From the NCBI RefSeq assembly GCF_001310085.1, contig NZ_CP012643.1, positions 837,001-901,000 on the forward strand: a DNA stretch of 64,000 nucleotides, in the 5' to 3' direction. Of the stretch, positions 15,742 to 54,523 are shown one piece after another. Within the stretch, counting starts at the first letter, position 1. Each line of letters opens with the position of its first letter. Origin of the DNA: Rufibacter tibetensis. Lineage in GTDB: Bacteria > Bacteroidota > Bacteroidia > Cytophagales > Hymenobacteraceae. A program made the translations under genes and the position numbers. The notes below the pieces were generated by a model, which worked only from the letters and a program-made list of their open reading frames with translations, ran no database searches and had not been told where the DNA came from.

Positions 15742-17187
15742 TTACCGCATGGAAATTCCTGCCATATCAGAACCGAGGTTTCCGGCGGCCCACTGGAGGT
15801 AGTATTTGGCTTTCCCGTATTTGCTTTTAAGTTCGTAGAGTTTGATCTGTTGGGTGAGTAGGTTCATTTCGCGGGTGTTTACTAAAAACAGGGAGCTTTC
15901 CCCGCTTTCAAACCGTTGCTGCTCGCCGTTTCGCAGGAACTCATTGCTAACGATGATCTGCTCCTGCAGAGTAATCTGGTCTTCCAGCATGAGGCGCTCG
16001 TTGTAAGCAGCCTGCACTAGGTTTTGGGTCTCGCGGGTGGTCTGCTGCAGTTCCAGCCTTGTCGCGTTTAGCTTGAGGCGTGTCACCTGCAGTTTTCCCC
16101 GCTCCTGCCGCAGGAAAAGAGGAAAACTGAAACTGGCTCCCAGTTTGTAATTGTCAGAAGCATACCGCTCCTCCAGCCAACTGCGGCTCATAGAGCTGCC
16201 GGCCCCAATCAGGTTGTACTCCAAATTAAGTTTAGGGAGCAGTTTGTTTTGGGAGAACCGCCGCTCTACCTCCAATTGCCTTACTTTTACCTGCAGTTTG
16301 GCTACCTCCGGATGCCGGTCCCGGGCATTGCCCAGAAAGAACGCAAGTTCCCCATCCGTAAGTGGTTCCGGCTCTGTGCCCAGCAAAGAAGGTTTCACCC
16401 CTTCAGGTAATTCCAGAGGAGTGTTGTTTTCGCCCCACAGGAAGTTGGATACCAGCAGCGCAGCGTTCTGGCTTTCTGTACGCGCCTGAAAAAGCAAAGC
16501 TTGCCGGTTCTGGACCTCCATTTGGGCTTCTACAGAGTCAATGGCCGCCAAGTCTCCTTGCCGTACCCGTTCTTTCACCGCTTGTAGCCGCACCTGGGCT
16601 AACTGGAAGCCTTGTTCCAACAAGGCGCGGCGCTGGTAAGCGTAGGCCCAGTCCCAGTAAGCTTTGGCTGCTTCCAAAAGTAATTTGTTAATGGTTTTCA
16701 CCCGATCCGCTTCGGCTAACTCCTGGGCCTGCCGGGCAAGAGCCAACGTAGCCCGCCGTTCATCCATCAACAAACCCTGGGCCAGCGGCACAGAAATGCC
16801 CACATAGGAAAGTCCATCGCGGGGTGTGATGTTCTCCCCGTTCACATTCACTCCGCTGTTGCGTTCATAACCGGCCTTCAGTTCCCCAATCCAGAGAGGC
16901 ACTTTCAAGACGTTGTCCCAGAGCGTAAAATAGTTTTTACCGCCCAGCTCCTTTTTGTAATACTTGGCGGCCAATACGGGGTCAAAGGCTCCGCGGGCCA
17001 TGAGGATCTCCTGCCGCGCCTGCTCTGATAGCTGCTCAGCTTGCCGGGCCACCGGATGGCGCCAGGCAATCTGCTCCATGAAATCATGGATGGTAAACAC
17101 CGCTGTGCTGTCTGCTGCCTGCGTTGGAAAATACCAAAGCAGCAAACCACATAGTAGGGCACTATAAATCATTCGGCTGCTTTTCAT
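15742..17187 (-). CDS. TolC-family outer membrane efflux channel
   Basis: 481 residues. The signal peptide (MIYSALLCGLLLWYFPTQAA) is followed by the two OEP repeats: long coiled-coil helices rich in Leu/Ala/Gln/Glu with beta-segments (DGLSYVGISVPLAQGLL, KLGASFSFPLFLRQERGKL). It would form the outer membrane exit duct of the exporter encoded just upstream. It overlaps the HlyD gene by 4 bases and is the last gene of the operon TetR-ABC-HlyD-TolC. Confidence 0.9.
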   Translation of the reverse strand: MKSSRMIYSALLCGLLLWYFPTQAADSTAVFTIHDFMEQIAWRHPVARQAEQLSEQARQEILMARGAFDPVLAAKYYKKELGGKNYFTLWDNVLKVPLWIGELKAGYERNSGVNVNGENITPRDGLSYVGISVPLAQGLLMDERRATLALARQAQELAEADRVKTINKLLLEAAKAYWDWAYAYQRRALLEQGFQLAQVRLQAVKERVRQGDLAAIDSVEAQMEVQNRQALLFQARTESQNAALLVSNFLWGENNTPLELPEGVKPSLLGTEPEPLTDGELAFFLGNARDRHPEVAKLQVKVRQLEVERRFSQNKLLPKLNLEYNLIGAGSSMSRSWLEERYASDNYKLGASFSFPLFLRQERGKLQVTRLKLNATRLELQQTTRETQNLVQAAYNERLMLEDQITLQEQIIVSNEFLRNGEQQRFESGESSLFLVNTREMNLLTQQIKLYELKSKYGKAKYYLQWAAGNLGSDMAGISMR

Positions 17188-18560
17188 TTCTCTTCTTGCC
17201 CCTTTGCTGCCTTCTCTTTCTTTCCTTCCTTAGAGCTGTTTTGAGCCCCGTTTACATAATCAGGCGGGAAAGCATTCAACTGCCGCCAGAGCTCATACCA
17301 GATGGGAACATCGTTGAGCATGGCCCACCCGTACGCTCCAGATCCTACCAGAATGGCCTCAGGCCAGGGAGTTCCCTCAGGGTCTGGCACCACCAATATC
17401 CGGTAGTTACCCTCGCTGTTCATGTTGTCTATCACGGCCACCTTGCCCCCGAACGTTCCGAACCCAACATTGGGCCATCCGGAGAACACCAAGGCAGGCC
17501 ACCCTTCAAATTGTAAGCGCACGTTTCGTCCTACCTCCAGCAAGGGCACATCCATGGCTTTCATGTACAGTTCCACGGCCAGTTGTGGGTTGGCCGGCAT
17601 AATGCTGCAAATGGCCTCTCCTTCTTTGATGGTTTCACCAAGCCCGGCTTTCAACGTTCTCACCACTACCCCATCCTGCGGCGCGGTCACTTGGTAAAAG
17701 GAATTCCTGATTTCAGTATTGGCATATTCGTTTTTCAGTTTGGAAAGCTCACCCTTGCTGTCATTCACGTAAGCCAGGGTGGAATTCAGGTCTGAGCGGG
17801 CTTTGGAGATTTTATCCTGGTACTCGGCTTCCAAAGAGGAAAGCTCCAGACGCGCGTTCTGCTGCTCATTTCGGCTGATGTTGAGCTTGTTTTGGGTGCT
17901 CTGCAACTTGGCTTGCATTTCCTGAAACTTAAGACGCCGGCTTTCTAGCTCGGTCAACGATTTAAGGCCTTGCTGAAAAAGCTTTTCCTGACGCCCGTAT
18001 TGCGCCTGTGCAATCTCAAACTCAGCTTTGATAGCCACTAAGTCTGCACTGTCACTCTGTACTTTTAAATACGCCTGGCGGGTTTTATTGCGCGCTTTTT
18101 GTAAGCTGAACTGTAAGCCCTCCTGCAGGGCCACAATCTGTTGGGAGAGCGCAGCGGCTTTGTTTTGGGTGGCTTCCAGACTTCCCTCCTTGGCCTGCAA
18201 CTGTTCCTGCATCCGGGTGAGTAACTGAGGGTCAAAGTATTTCTCCTTCACCTCAGAGAGTATCACCAGCGTATCGCCTTTCTTTACTTTCTGCCCTTCC
18301 TGCACCCGCCACTGTTCAATGCGCCCGGCAATGGTACTCTGCACCGTTTGGGGCCGATCTTGAGGTTGCAACGTGGTCACGGCCCCGGCCGACCGGATGT
18401 TTTGGGTCCAGGGGAGCCAGCAGGCAATGAACAGCAGGACAAAAAAGCCCAGGCACCAATACGCCATTACTCTGGCCAGTTTTGGTTTACTCACGTGCCT
18501 AAAAGAATCATATTGTTCCCAGGCAAGCGGAAGTGTGGAAGTGGAGGTTTGCTTCGCCAT
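17184..18560 (-). CDS. HlyD-type periplasmic adaptor protein
   Basis: 458 residues. One N-terminal membrane helix (about residues 31-50, CLGFFVLLFIACWLPW) is followed by a split lipoyl domain (GRIEQWRVQEGQKVKKGDTL and TAPQDGVVVRTLKAGLGETI) that flanks a coiled coil of about 170 residues, and then a beta-barrel domain. The C-terminus is Lys/Glu-rich. It bridges the inner-membrane ABC protein and the TolC-type channel. It begins directly at the stop of the ABC gene (1-base junction) and overlaps TolC by 4 bases, so all are co-translated. Confidence 0.9.
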   Translation of the reverse strand: MAKQTSTSTLPLAWEQYDSFRHVSKPKLARVMAYWCLGFFVLLFIACWLPWTQNIRSAGAVTTLQPQDRPQTVQSTIAGRIEQWRVQEGQKVKKGDTLVILSEVKEKYFDPQLLTRMQEQLQAKEGSLEATQNKAAALSQQIVALQEGLQFSLQKARNKTRQAYLKVQSDSADLVAIKAEFEIAQAQYGRQEKLFQQGLKSLTELESRRLKFQEMQAKLQSTQNKLNISRNEQQNARLELSSLEAEYQDKISKARSDLNSTLAYVNDSKGELSKLKNEYANTEIRNSFYQVTAPQDGVVVRTLKAGLGETIKEGEAICSIMPANPQLAVELYMKAMDVPLLEVGRNVRLQFEGWPALVFSGWPNVGFGTFGGKVAVIDNMNSEGNYRILVVPDPEGTPWPEAILVGSGAYGWAMLNDVPIWYELWRQLNAFPPDYVNGAQNSSKEGKKEKAAKGQEEK

Positions 18561-20284
18561 TACACAAACTGGTTTAATTCCTCAACTGAGGCTTTTTCAC
18601 TTAAAATTTCTCTTTTCACCTTTCCGTTTTCAAGTAAAATCACCCGGTTGCAGAGGCGCATCATGGCTGGATCATTGGAGATCACAACCACGGTCCAGGG
18701 CAACTCCTCCCCTAACAACCGCTGTCCAATACGTTCCCGAAGGGCTTTGTTGACAGCGGGCAGAAAGTGGTCCAGCAAAAGTAGTTTGGGTTTTCGCGCA
18801 ATGCTTCGGGCCAAGGCAAACCGCTGAGCAACCCCTTCCGGTATGGTAGGAGAATGGCTCCGGATCACCGTATAAAGCCCATCTGGCTGGGCCTGCACAT
18901 AATCAGACAACTCCACGGTCTCTAATGCCCATAACACGTCATCCAAGGTAACTTCAGGCTGGCCCATGGTAATGTTTTCCAGGATGGTACCTTCAAACAA
19001 AAGGCTGGGCAACAAATACACCCCGGTTTGCTCCTGAATGGCCTCCGGATTATAATCCTGCAGGGACAGACCATTGTACACGACAGTGCCTTCATAGTCC
19101 GTCAGGATACCTGCCATTACCTGCAGTAAGGTAGACCTACCCGCCTCATGGGTACCTGCCAGGCAGATCTTGTCACCGGGTGCTCCTGAAAAGCTGATTC
19201 CCTGTAAAGCATGTTTTCTGGCACCAGCATAGCGGAAAGCCACTTCCTTTACCTGAATGGCAACGCCTTGCTGGCTGGAAGGTGTTTCTCTTACCTGAGC
19301 TTGGGTTTCCTCCATAGGCAGGTCTGTCACGCTCCCCAACTTTTCCAGGCTGGTCAATACATCATATACCACATCCAGCTTCACCAGCAGTTTTTCCACG
19401 GCACTAATGATGAGAATGATGATGATTTCTGAAGCTACAAACTGGCCCAAGTTTATTTCCTGGTTCACCAGCAGCAAACTGCCCATGAGCAGCAAGCCCG
19501 CCGTAATAATCGTTTTAAAACCCACAAACCCGATGTACTGTGAGATCAACACCTTAAAGTGCGCATCTCTGGCTTTCAAGTAGCCACTGGTATAGGCATC
19601 GGTCTTGGTGAGCGAGAGCCGTTCATGTGATGCAGACTTGAAAACGGTGATATTGCGCGCCATCTCCTCCAACCAGTTCACCAACCGGTATTTGTATTTT
19701 GACTCTTCCAGGCTAGTGCGCATTCCGCGGGGGCTGGAGAGCCTAAGCAAAAGCACCAGCAGGGTGATCAGCACCAAACCGAAGAAGATAAAATAGGAAT
19801 GGTAAAAGGAGAGCAACACCAGCCCAAACAGAATCTGAATGGCCGCCGCCGAAAAATCGGTCAACATCTTGGCCAAGCCTTTCTGCAAGGAAATCACGTC
19901 AAAGAACCGGTTCATCATCTCGGGTAGGTTGTGCGATGCCAGCTGATTTCCCTTGATTTTGGTTAAATGGGTTGTAAACTGAAAAGCTTTAGTAGCAAAG
20001 ATGCGCTGCTGAATATGCTCTACCAAGGAAAGTTGCATCACCTGCAGGCCGCCTACCACCACCACACCCAGTACAATAAATATAATCAGCACTGTCACGG
20101 AGGTCACTAATTGTCCGCCAGACACAAACCCGATCAGGCTTTGGATGCCCAGCGGCAAAGAGAGGTTCACCAGACCAGAGAAAATGGCATAGAGGTAAAT
20201 GTACCCGATCACCTTCTGTTCAGAGGAGAGCACTTCCAGCAAACGCTTGAAGGGAGTTGGTTTTAAAGTTGTTTGAGTCGCCAT
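18560..20284 (-). CDS. Exporter-type ABC protein with degenerate ATPase domain
   Basis: 574 residues: six membrane helices (about 25-310), then a nucleotide-binding domain (about 340-574). The fold is clear, but the catalytic motifs are altered: Walker A is AGTHEAGRST (Arg for the Lys, and Glu for the second Gly); the Q-loop Gln is missing (VYLLPSLLFEGTILENI); the signature is IPEGVAQRFALARS instead of LSGGQ; the residue after Walker B Asp is His (LLLLDHF); and the switch His is Asn (VVVISNDP). There is no N-terminal C39 peptidase domain. Context (HlyD, TolC, TetR) says type I secretion or efflux. Whether it hydrolyses ATP at all is open. The start overlaps the TetR stop (TAATG). Confidence 0.88.
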   Translation of the reverse strand: MATQTTLKPTPFKRLLEVLSSEQKVIGYIYLYAIFSGLVNLSLPLGIQSLIGFVSGGQLVTSVTVLIIFIVLGVVVVGGLQVMQLSLVEHIQQRIFATKAFQFTTHLTKIKGNQLASHNLPEMMNRFFDVISLQKGLAKMLTDFSAAAIQILFGLVLLSFYHSYFIFFGLVLITLLVLLLRLSSPRGMRTSLEESKYKYRLVNWLEEMARNITVFKSASHERLSLTKTDAYTSGYLKARDAHFKVLISQYIGFVGFKTIITAGLLLMGSLLLVNQEINLGQFVASEIIIILIISAVEKLLVKLDVVYDVLTSLEKLGSVTDLPMEETQAQVRETPSSQQGVAIQVKEVAFRYAGARKHALQGISFSGAPGDKICLAGTHEAGRSTLLQVMAGILTDYEGTVVYNGLSLQDYNPEAIQEQTGVYLLPSLLFEGTILENITMGQPEVTLDDVLWALETVELSDYVQAQPDGLYTVIRSHSPTIPEGVAQRFALARSIARKPKLLLLDHFLPAVNKALRERIGQRLLGEELPWTVVVISNDPAMMRLCNRVILLENGKVKREILSEKASVEELNQFV

Positions 20285-20991
20285 TACTTACTATTGGAGG
20301 TGGAGGATACGGCAACGTTCCCAATGAGGGCAAAGGCCAGATGGTTCAAGAAGGTTGTCAAACTGTTTTCTTCTCCGTTGTTCAGCTTCACCTCTGTAAG
20401 GCGGGGAAGGTGCTGCGCGAAGAACAGATGCTTACGTGCCGCTTCAAAGAGCGTGCTCACCAAAGCATGCGGAAAAGGATAGTCTGGGTTAATCTCCAGC
20501 ACCACCAGCGCCATCTTGTGGCACAAGTTTTTGTAATCCTGGAACAAGCCGTCTTTGTTGTCGTTGTCCACTTCCTTGGTGAGGTAGGCCTTAGAAGCTT
20601 CCAGTACTACAATGCGGGCCAGGGCATGTACGTCATTGTACATATCCAACGGTTCTCCCTCCCTGTTATCGGCAAGAATAGAAATGAAGATTCGTAGCCT
20701 CTCAACCGGATCTTTCACGTTGTGGGTCTGGTAGCTGATGCGGTAATCCAACCAGTTCCAGTACCATGATACCAGGTAGAGCAGCAGTTTGTGCTTGTTC
20801 TCAAAGTACCGGTACACCGATGCCTCTGTGGAGTTTATCTGCTGCGCGAGCTTTTTAAAGGTGAATAACTCAAAACCCAATTCATCTATCAACCGGATAC
20901 TTTCCTTAAAGATAGTCCTACCCAATTCGGTCTGTTCCGGGTCTCGCAGGAAAAGCTTTTCATTTAACCTGATTCTGATGGTGGCGCTCAT
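20284..20991 (-). CDS. TetR/AcrR family transcriptional regulator
   Basis: 235 residues. The N-terminal helix-turn-helix is standard: GRTIFKESIRLIDELGFELF, FTFKKLAQQINSTEASVYRY, then FENKHKLLLYLVSWYWNWL. The C-terminal ligand/dimer domain is all helical. First gene of the exporter operon and presumably its repressor: a 19-base palindrome overlaps the promoter just upstream (21031-21049). The stop codon shares a base with the ABC start codon. The ligand is unknown and may be the exported compound or peptide. Confidence 0.9.
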   Translation of the reverse strand: MSATIRIRLNEKLFLRDPEQTELGRTIFKESIRLIDELGFELFTFKKLAQQINSTEASVYRYFENKHKLLLYLVSWYWNWLDYRISYQTHNVKDPVERLRIFISILADNREGEPLDMYNDVHALARIVVLEASKAYLTKEVDNDNKDGLFQDYKNLCHKMALVVLEINPDYPFPHALVSTLFEAARKHLFFAQHLPRLTEVKLNNGEENSLTTFLNHLAFALIGNVAVSSTSNSK

Positions 20992-52876: not shown

Positions 52877-54523
52877 TTAGTTGGCAACTGCCTTCCGCTC
52901 AATCTCTCTAAGGTTCTCCATTTTCTTGTTGCGCAGGAAACCGTTGATGTCTTCAAAGTGCTCTCTGATACGCTTGTTCCCGAACTCAAATACTTTCTCG
53001 GCCAGGCCATCCAGGAAGTCACGGTCGTGGGATACCAGGATGAGCGTTCCGTCAAAGGCTTTGAGGGCGTCTTTCAGGATGTCCTTGGTTTTGATGTCCA
53101 GGTGGTTGGTGGGCTCATCCAGAATCAAGAGGTTCACCGGTTGCAGAAGAAGCTTGATCATGGCCAGACGAGTTTTTTCCCCACCTGACAGCATCTTCAC
53201 TTTCTTCTCAATGGTGTCACCGCTGAACATGAAAGCTCCCAGAATGTCTTTGATGCGGGTCCGTACATCCCCCACGGCAATCTGGTCTATGGTCTGGAAA
53301 ACCGAAAGGTCCTCATCCATCAAAGAAGCCTGGTTCTGCGCGAAGTAGCCAATCATGGAGTTGTGCCCTAACTGAAGTTTGCCCTCATAATCAATCTCGC
53401 CCATGATGGCTTTAATAAGCGTAGATTTACCTTCGCCGTTCTTGCCCACAAACGCCACTTTCTCGCCGCGTTCAATGGTTAATGACGCATCTTTGAATAC
53501 GGTATGGTCGCCGTACTTTTTGGTGAGTTCTTCCACAATCACGGGGTAGTTACCAGAGCGGGGTGCGGGCGGAAACTTCAGGCTCAATGCCGAGGTATCA
53601 ACTTCGTCCACTTCCACCAGCTCCATTTTCTCCAGCATCTTCACGCGTGACTGCACTTGCAGCGTTTTAGAGTAGGTTCCTTTAAAACGCTCAATAAACG
53701 CCGTAATGTCAGCAATTTCTTTCTGCTGGTCATCGTACTGGCGTTGCTGCTGTTCGCGGCGCTCTTTGCGGAGTTGCAGGTACTGGGTGTATGGTACTTT
53801 GTAGTCGTAAATACGGCCCATGGTCACCTCAATGGTACGGTTGGTGATGTTGTCCACGAAGGTCTTGTCGTGGGAAATCACGATCACCGCCTTGGCGTTG
53901 TTCACCAAGAAATCTTCCAGCCACTGCACCGATTCAATGTCCAGGTGGTTGGTAGGCTCATCCAGTAAAATCAGGTCAGGCTTCTGCAGAAGGATTTTGG
54001 CCAGTTCAATGCGCATGCGCCATCCGCCGGAGAACTCGCTGGTGGGGCGGGGAAAATCCGCACGCAGGAAACCTAAACCCAAAAGCGTTTTCTCTACCTC
54101 GGCATCAAAGTTGATTTCCTCAATGGAGTAGTATTTCTCGCTCAGCTCAGACACGTCCTCGATCAGCTTCATGTACTCGTCTGATTCGTAGTCGGTGCGG
54201 GTTTCCAGCTGAGTGTTCAGCTCGTCCATTTTGGCCTTCATTTCCAGAATCTGCCCGAAAGCTTTGGACGCCTCCTCAAACACGGTGCTCTCATCTTTGG
54301 TGAGCAAGTGCTGCGGCAGGTACGCGATCACGGCATCTTTAGGGGCCGACACCTTGCCTTTGGTAGGCTTGTTAACTCCGGCAATGATCTTGAGGAGGGT
54401 AGATTTTCCGGCTCCGTTCTTTCCCATGAGGGCGATCCGGTCGGTTTCATTGATGTTGAAGGTAACGTTACTAAAAAGAGCCGAGCCGTTAAATTCAACG
54501 GCGACCGAATCAACTGAAATCAT
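52877..54523 (-). CDS. ABC-F family ATPase
   Basis: 548 residues: two ABC ATPase domains, no membrane helices. Domain 1: Walker A MGKNGAGKSTLLK, signature EFSGGWRMRIELAK, Walker B LILLDEPTNHLDIES. The interdomain linker (about 240-310, RKERREQQQRQYDDQQKEI) is the P-site tRNA interaction motif. Domain 2: VGKNGEGKSTLIK, LSGGEKTRLAMIK, LLILDEPTNHLD. ABC-F proteins bind the ribosomal E site and act in translation or antibiotic protection. Which subfamily is unclear. An exact -7 box at 54546-54553. Confidence 0.93.
   Translation of the reverse strand: MISVDSVAVEFNGSALFSNVTFNINETDRIALMGKNGAGKSTLLKIIAGVNKPTKGKVSAPKDAVIAYLPQHLLTKDESTVFEEASKAFGQILEMKAKMDELNTQLETRTDYESDEYMKLIEDVSELSEKYYSIEEINFDAEVEKTLLGLGFLRADFPRPTSEFSGGWRMRIELAKILLQKPDLILLDEPTNHLDIESVQWLEDFLVNNAKAVIVISHDKTFVDNITNRTIEVTMGRIYDYKVPYTQYLQLRKERREQQQRQYDDQQKEIADITAFIERFKGTYSKTLQVQSRVKMLEKMELVEVDEVDTSALSLKFPPAPRSGNYPVIVEELTKKYGDHTVFKDASLTIERGEKVAFVGKNGEGKSTLIKAIMGEIDYEGKLQLGHNSMIGYFAQNQASLMDEDLSVFQTIDQIAVGDVRTRIKDILGAFMFSGDTIEKKVKMLSGGEKTRLAMIKLLLQPVNLLILDEPTNHLDIKTKDILKDALKAFDGTLILVSHDRDFLDGLAEKVFEFGNKRIREHFEDINGFLRNKKMENLREIERKAVAN

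Follow-up and report, generated by a model that had tools for sequence, protein, structure and literature searches.

Operon and ABC Protein in the Window

The DNA analyzed here, referred to as the window, is a stretch of 64,000 nucleotides from Rufibacter tibetensis (assembly GCF_001310085.1, contig NZ_CP012643.1, positions 837,001 to 901,000), and the gene in question, at window positions 18560–20284 on the minus strand, encodes a protein of 574 residues that resembles an ABC exporter whose ATPase motifs have been lost, as judged from the open reading frame (ORF), Pfam, an alignment to paralogues and Foldseek. The gene belongs to a row of four intact ORFs, all on the minus strand and abutting or overlapping one another; the first-pass annotation of this DNA had recognized an undamaged TetR-ABC-HlyD-TolC operon here. 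The first gene of the operon encodes a TetR-type regulator (20284–20991; PF00440, E = 2.9e-7), and the ABC gene is followed by those of a HlyD-type periplasmic adaptor of 458 residues (17184–18560; PF13437, with a TIGR01843 score under the cut-off) and a TolC-type outer-membrane channel of 481 residues (15742–17187; PF02321, E = 8.6e-32).

The membrane domain, which is the conserved part of the protein, comprises residues about 10–330 (19295–20257), as delimited by PF00664, the membrane-domain alignment A1 and the helices of an AlphaFold2 model, and a degenerate nucleotide-binding domain (NBD), matched by PF00005, comprises residues about 343–570 (18575–19258). The AlphaFold2 model (pLDDT 80.4, pTM 0.61, 21 aligned rows) keeps both domains, with block pLDDT values of 72–93 in the NBD, which agrees with the earlier impression that the membrane domain and the overall fold are intact. 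In the Foldseek search with this model, PCAT1, TmrAB and HlyB were found at ranks 1, 5 and 27, each with a TMq of 0.89. The exporter fold and the grouping of the gene with those for HlyD and TolC are traits of type I secretion; the ABC protein scored under every cut-off of the NCBIfam models of type I secretion exporters (LssB/HlyB/PrtD, NHLM), where the best score was 176.3 against 709.4 bits and that for LssB was 160.7 against 693.1 bits. The SbmA/BacA family was absent among the Pfam hits of the window proteins and of the scanned relatives.

The ATPase motifs were compared with those of six canonical paralogues from the window's own genome, which served as the control. The Walker A sequence is GTHEAGRSTLL, in which the lysine is replaced by Arg383 (AGG, 19136–19138) and the second glycine of GxxGxGK by Glu380, and the remaining glycines and the Ser-Thr pair are kept. 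The column of the Q-loop glutamine holds Leu425, within LLPSLLFEGT (19010–19012), and the signature LSGGQ reads IPEGV (residues 481–485, 18830–18844), with four of the five positions altered and one glycine kept. The catalytic glutamate, directly after Asp505, is replaced by His506 (CAC, 18767–18769), and the switch histidine by Asn537 in SND (18674–18676). These changes had all been read correctly in the first-pass annotation, which had placed the AGG codon near 19138, given the signature as IPEGVAQ and noted the histidine after the Walker B aspartate; the alignment to the six paralogues confirms the residues, and the sequence confirms the codon position. Of the motif set of an active ABC protein (Walker A lysine, LSGGQ, catalytic glutamate, switch histidine and Q-loop glutamine), the window protein retains one signature glycine only.

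Erosion of the ATPase Motifs in the Family

Within the bacterial family to which the window belongs (f1), a homologue was found at E ≤ 1e-60 in 128 of 150 genomes, the window's own genome included. At E ≤ 1e-50, the membrane-domain profile A1 matched 148 of the 295 genomes drawn from the class, in a few cases through contig-end fragments; at E ≤ 1e-40, it matched 62 of the 247 genomes drawn from the phylum. The two draws have genomes in common. The nearest named relatives of the window protein are seven Rufibacter loci with 71–81% identity, and its clade is therefore named the Rufibacter clade. Before the tree and the residue and motif counts, rows L071, L079, L092, L103, L122, L011, L021, L024–L030, L033 and L034 were removed. 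They are mostly duplicate genomes kept under other identifiers; L029 and L030 are not duplicates and have likewise degenerate motifs, L122 (G393) lies at a contig end, and L071 (split) and L079 (frameshifted) were taken as broken copies. The frameshifted or split appearance of these last two copies indicates that the gene is also capable of outright decay.

Five features, namely the Walker A lysine, the catalytic glutamate, the switch histidine, the signature serine and the second glycine of the signature, were scored in 137 distinct NBD-bearing rows. They are complete in five of the six canonical paralogues, and the sixth has aspartate in place of the glutamate. In the Rufibacter clade, the lysine, glutamate and histidine occur together in none of the 11 rows; arginine replaces the Walker A lysine in 10 of them, and the switch histidine is asparagine in all 11. 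Among the 99 other degenerate rows, neither the five features nor the combination of lysine, glutamate and histidine is found in any, the glutamate or the histidine is retained in 11 (L160 retains both), and the Walker A lysine was scored in 94, although a few of the most eroded rows are perhaps misaligned. The deep-branch relatives (L178–L194) have all five features in 7 of 17 rows, lack one in six more and combine the lysine, glutamate and histidine in 13; the Q-loop glutamine is found in none of the 17 rows, as in the window protein. Because these deep-branching relatives are near-canonical, the ancestor of the family probably hydrolyzed ATP.

The motifs are thus eroded to different degrees, and they are gone across a large, mostly Bacteroidia clade. 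In four sphingomonad rows, nearly no motif residue is left, and the one scanned (L199) gave no PF00005 match at E ≤ 0.01. Seven members (L156, L157, L159, L160, L128, L129 and L201) have longer ORFs and an NBD with little or no Walker A, and may possibly be intermediates ahead of the loss of the NBD. From the distribution of motifs over the rows, we infer the order in which the motifs and the NBD were lost.

Members of about 700–840 residues, including L178–L193, carry an N-terminal extension, very roughly 150–280 residues long, ahead of the membrane domain. No Pfam match was found to this extension in the members scanned, and the alignment to the LssB model starts near residue 60 of the model in two of the three longer members scanned; the extension may be what is left of a C39-like domain. 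Among plasmids, 22 records were matched. In all six annotated records that were opened (L198, L199, L201–L204), genes of the adaptor type (HlyD or biotin/lipoyl) and of TolC lie downstream, and the unannotated record L200 has ORFs of fitting size. On the Sphingomonadales plasmids L199, L202, L203 and L204, the row of exporter, adaptor and TolC genes is accompanied by an NBD eroded nearly past recognition.

Members without the NBD and Fusions to the Adaptor

Of the 128 family-level matches, 32 extend no further than the membrane domain or only slightly beyond it; in G065 and G073, the match continues across a stop. The 19 of these loci that were fetched all hold an ORF of 337–374 residues followed by hlyD and tolC, and four further NBD-less loci, with ORFs of 333–339 residues, were found in families f3 and f42, which gives 23 loci of 333–374 residues. 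Since the NBD-less gene overlaps hlyD in 22 of the 23 loci, there is no room for an NBD between them; in L124, the two genes are separated by 34 bases. In seven genomes, the membrane domain and HlyD are fused into one protein of 744–781 residues with no NBD between, and Pfam detects both halves in the one fusion scanned (L132). HlyD-type and TolC-type genes are present in all 30 NBD-less or fusion loci. A gene matching the window's TetR adjoins the ABC gene in many relatives, and six of the seven fusion loci retain one; no such match was found at the 23 NBD-less loci (L052–L070, L123–L126). The possibility that the NBD-less genes are an assembly artefact was ruled out, as they are found in genomes of one to four contigs (G056, G131, G437, G129, G011), and the overlap of nearly all fetched NBD-less genes with hlyD also speaks against it.

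A maximum-likelihood tree of the membrane domains was built by a quick method from 111 of the 168 rows. The 13 NBD-less rows used form one clade (SH-aLRT 99) and the seven fusions another (SH-aLRT 100), both among the degenerate rows, so the presence of the NBD changes twice on the tree. Many independent losses of the NBD are not supported by this tree. The NBD-less clade covers three bacterial families. Long branches were flagged (L128, L158, L194, L022 and the canonical rows), and the root of the tree is unsure for this reason. Judging from these gene structures, the NBD is dispensable in the family.

Selection and Conserved Residues of the Membrane Domain

The ratio of nonsynonymous to synonymous substitution rates (dN/dS) was estimated by the Nei-Gojobori method for 12 pairs, with one membrane-domain and one NBD value missing; many dS values exceed 1, so the ratios are rough. 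They range from 0.003 to 0.15 for the membrane domain and from 0.04 to 0.34 for the degenerate NBD (11 of the 12 comparisons), and the NBD is under weaker constraint than the membrane domain in 9 of the 10 pairs having both values. In five NBD-less pairs, the ratio is 0.04–0.17, and the membrane domain remains subject to purifying selection. A recent pseudogene is ruled out by the constraint on both domains and by the recurrence of the altered motifs in all 110 degenerate rows, those of the Rufibacter clade included. None of these rows is a close homologue with canonical motifs, which the first-pass annotation would have taken as a sign of recent drift, and its view that the gene is not a case of simple decay is supported.

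Within the membrane domain, 22 columns are conserved in at least 95% of the 161 distinct family rows, and five of the 22 are charged. Two acids of transmembrane helix 6 (TM6) are diagnostic of the family: Glu286 (19427–19429), found in 159 of the 161 rows, and Asp308 at the cytoplasmic end of the helix (19361–19363), found in 160; both are absent from the six canonical paralogues. The same applies to Ser195 and Lys198, present in all 161 rows, and to Lys135, present in 160. The pair Glu297-Lys298 of TM6 (19391–19396) is missing from four alphaproteobacterial rows and is not unique to the family, as ComA has a glutamate aligned to position 297. Because Glu286, Glu297 and Asp308 are spaced by 11 residues, they would lie on one face of TM6. 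Glu286, Asp308, Ser195, Lys198 and Tyr199 are kept in all 24 NBD-less rows (23 distinct, as L068 and L094 are from one genome) and in all seven fusions. In the fusions, Glu122 and Arg126 are kept in none of the seven and Glu194 in one, while the NBD-less rows are unchanged at these positions.

Proposed Mechanism and Observations Against It

We conclude that the family no longer appears to rely on its own ATPase, and the system may be driven by something else. An exporter membrane domain that lacks, as judged by the motifs, a functional ATPase is maintained with an adaptor and an outer-membrane duct, and the complex presumably still moves a substrate. In the mechanism proposed here, the window gene would be one stage in a process by which the family has lost the drive from the exporter's own ATPase domain. 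The membrane domain would work as a homodimer, still by alternating access, and pass the substrate to the HlyD-TolC duct. The energy would most likely come from the proton gradient through the membrane-domain acids Glu286, Glu297 and Asp308 of TM6, and the dead NBD, where still present, would be a leftover part with a structural or regulatory role. This reading, in which proton-coupled transport has taken over from the exporter's own ATPase, draws on sequence comparison and on analogy, and is regarded as plausible at a little under an even chance. As to the analogy, SbmA is described in PMC13316013 as an ABC-exporter-type membrane domain that is driven by protons without an NBD and has a proposed NBD-bearing ancestor. 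Likewise, PMC4979069 reports that MsbA-MD and LmrA-MD, from which the NBD was cut off, transport ethidium in a manner coupled to protons.

Several observations weigh against this reading. Glu286, Glu297 and Asp308 are already present in 16, 14 and 16 of the 17 deep-branch rows, respectively, and for this reason they would not be a replacement for the ATPase; the idea of a newly gained proton path is weakened, as the acids are older than the ATPase loss. The helix-face conservation moment of TM6 is weak (0.1), and the structure model of the fusion is poor (pLDDT 57.8). The residues 122, 125, 126, 194 and 198 of the coupling region are kept in all 24 NBD-less rows, unlike in SbmA, which fits docking of an NBD in trans. 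Moreover, of 12 NBD-less loci taken with longer flanks, 6 carry a canonical exporter of 608–636 residues, which is encoded on the strand of the operon about 2.2–2.4 kb past tolC, and in family f5, which keeps a degenerate NBD, an intact canonical exporter lies upstream on the same strand in all five re-fetched loci (L217–L221), at a spacing of 89–371 bases in four of them and 1.35 kb in L221.

The exporters beyond tolC were seen in L205–L209 and L215; no exporter-type ABC gene was found in the other six longer NBD-less loci, one of which holds an ABC-F-like gene. Among the f1 NBD-less loci as first fetched, 8 of 19 end inside an exporter gene at the edge, and BLAST with NBD queries found no NBD in the 30 NBD-less or fusion loci as first fetched. 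No such exporter was found in the stretches of about 20 kb taken for five NBD-bearing f1 loci. The linked exporter is orthologous to a gene that the window's own genome carries in L003. Clear orthologues (44–66% identity, the query's genome apart) were found in 13 of 15 genomes and adjoin the operon in 3 of the 13; no clear orthologue was found in G228, an NBD-less genome (best 38%), or G441 (best 37%). In the window's genome, 2.2 Mb separate the exporter orthologue from the operon, and no partner gene adjoins the operon in the window. The search for a same-family partner covered 10 genomes (the window's, four f1 NBD-less, three f3/f42 and two with fusions) at E ≤ 0.001; the membrane-domain profile, which misses ordinary exporters, detected a single member in each.

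Elsewhere in the window, a 548-residue ORF (52877–54523, minus strand) has two stretches resembling ABC ATPase domains, and its shape tentatively suggests an ABC-F-like protein.

Alternative Explanations

The linkage to canonical exporters bears on the alternative in which ATP is spent by a partner whose gene lies elsewhere, be it a canonical exporter or a free NBD, through a heterodimer, docking of the NBD in trans or hand-off of the substrate across the inner membrane. In the hand-off variant, an ordinary exporter would take the substrate over the inner membrane and the HlyD-TolC complex would carry it onward. Together, these forms are considered unlikely. The upstream exporters of f5, those near the operon in the first-fetched f1 loci, and the coupling-region residues still conserved in the NBD-less clade argue for a partner, and in the YddA family, the membrane domain and the ATPase can be encoded by separate genes (PMC13316013). 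Against it, the exporter is a general gene that adjoins few of the operons, is far away in the window's genome and is missing from half of the longer NBD-less loci; a heterodimer containing an NBD-less half would have a single NBD, and the fusions are altered at residues 122 and 126 and mostly at 194. A functional link between exporter and operon is possible in some lineages, and an obligate partnership is not supported by the gene neighborhoods. The active ABC partner encoded elsewhere that the first-pass annotation had suggested agrees with the intact-motif exporters linked to f5 and to some NBD-less loci, and less well with the remote orthologue of the window's genome; the lack of a second family member bears only on partners of the same family.

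It is quite unlikely that the membrane domain is a passive or gated conduit, which would only provide HlyD-TolC with a base and a channel in the inner membrane, with the substrate leaving down its gradient. The fusions do resemble such a simplified conduit, and the loss of the ATPase was not seen to be accompanied by the gain of an ion-coupling residue; however, the 22 strongly conserved columns and the five charged residues among them suggest a worked mechanism over a pore. Dead enzymes can turn into scaffolds, and the TetR neighbor suggests conditional expression, both of which would suit a sensor, a scaffold or a part of envelope homeostasis built on a dead exporter. Such a non-transport role is nevertheless improbable, as the HlyD-type and TolC-type partners at every NBD-less or fusion locus point to a conduit. 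The least probable explanation, with a very small chance, is an ATP-binding switch without hydrolysis, in which the members with a Walker A lysine bind ATP and thereby gate the channel. The lysine scored in nearly all of the other degenerate rows, with the same caution on alignment, is in its favor, but the lysine is lost in almost the whole Rufibacter clade, the window protein included, and the domain is missing in two clades. The gated ATP-binding channel of the first-pass annotation is accordingly unlikely for the window protein and impossible for the NBD-less members.

Relation to Known Systems and Implications

The family shares its fold, in particular with PCAT1 and HlyB, and the order exporter-HlyD-TolC with the type I secretion and peptide exporters (HlyB, LssB, PCAT1, ComA), and differs from them in the lost ATPase motifs, the absence of the NBD in two clades and the missed NCBIfam cut-offs. 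TM287/288 and TmrAB are heterodimeric exporters with one degenerate site, and TmrAB is also treated in PMC8277102. The degenerate motifs and the canonical exporter just upstream in f5 recall such heterodimers, whereas the window has no adjacent partner, and an NBD-less member combined with a single partner half could not supply two NBDs.

The NBD-less and fusion relatives alone resemble SbmA/BacA (SLiPT), described in PMC13316013, in having an exporter-type membrane domain without an NBD, whereas the window protein still has its dead NBD. Further differences are the absence of an SbmA/BacA Pfam match, the HlyD-TolC partners, the coupling residues kept in the NBD-less clade and the extant intermediates. 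As regards the glutamate ladder that lines the cavity of SbmA/BacA, the candidate counterparts here are the three conserved acids on one face of TM6. The lone membrane domain is also like MsbA-MD and LmrA-MD, for which proton coupling is reported in PMC4979069; these are laboratory truncations, whereas the absence of the NBD here is natural and conserved.

Transport by an ABC-derived protein free of an NBD is therefore already known from SbmA, and what would be new here is the version linked to HlyD-TolC, the living intermediates and the fusion to the adaptor. No literature on the family or on the HlyD-TolC-linked version was found within the open-licence papers of PubMed Central, which are part of the literature. 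The family might represent a case of its own, independent of SbmA, in which ABC exporters have exchanged ATP drive for ion drive in the course of evolution, here inside a HlyD-TolC system and with the steps still living; this is put forward with somewhat less than even confidence. The steps would then be a nearly intact ATPase, a Walker-A-only form, a fully dead NBD as in the window protein, the absence of the NBD, and the fusion of the membrane domain to the adaptor.

Exporters of such shape are textbook ATP machines. In this family, a common operon, found in 148 of the 295 class genomes, is still maintained without an ATPase of its own. The label 'ABC transporter ATP-binding protein', carried in 10 of the 20 plasmid records listed, is misleading for the degenerate members. 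If the system is ion-driven, the family would provide natural intermediates for studying proton coupling of an ABC membrane domain; if it depends instead on the neighboring canonical exporter, it would represent a new kind of partnership.

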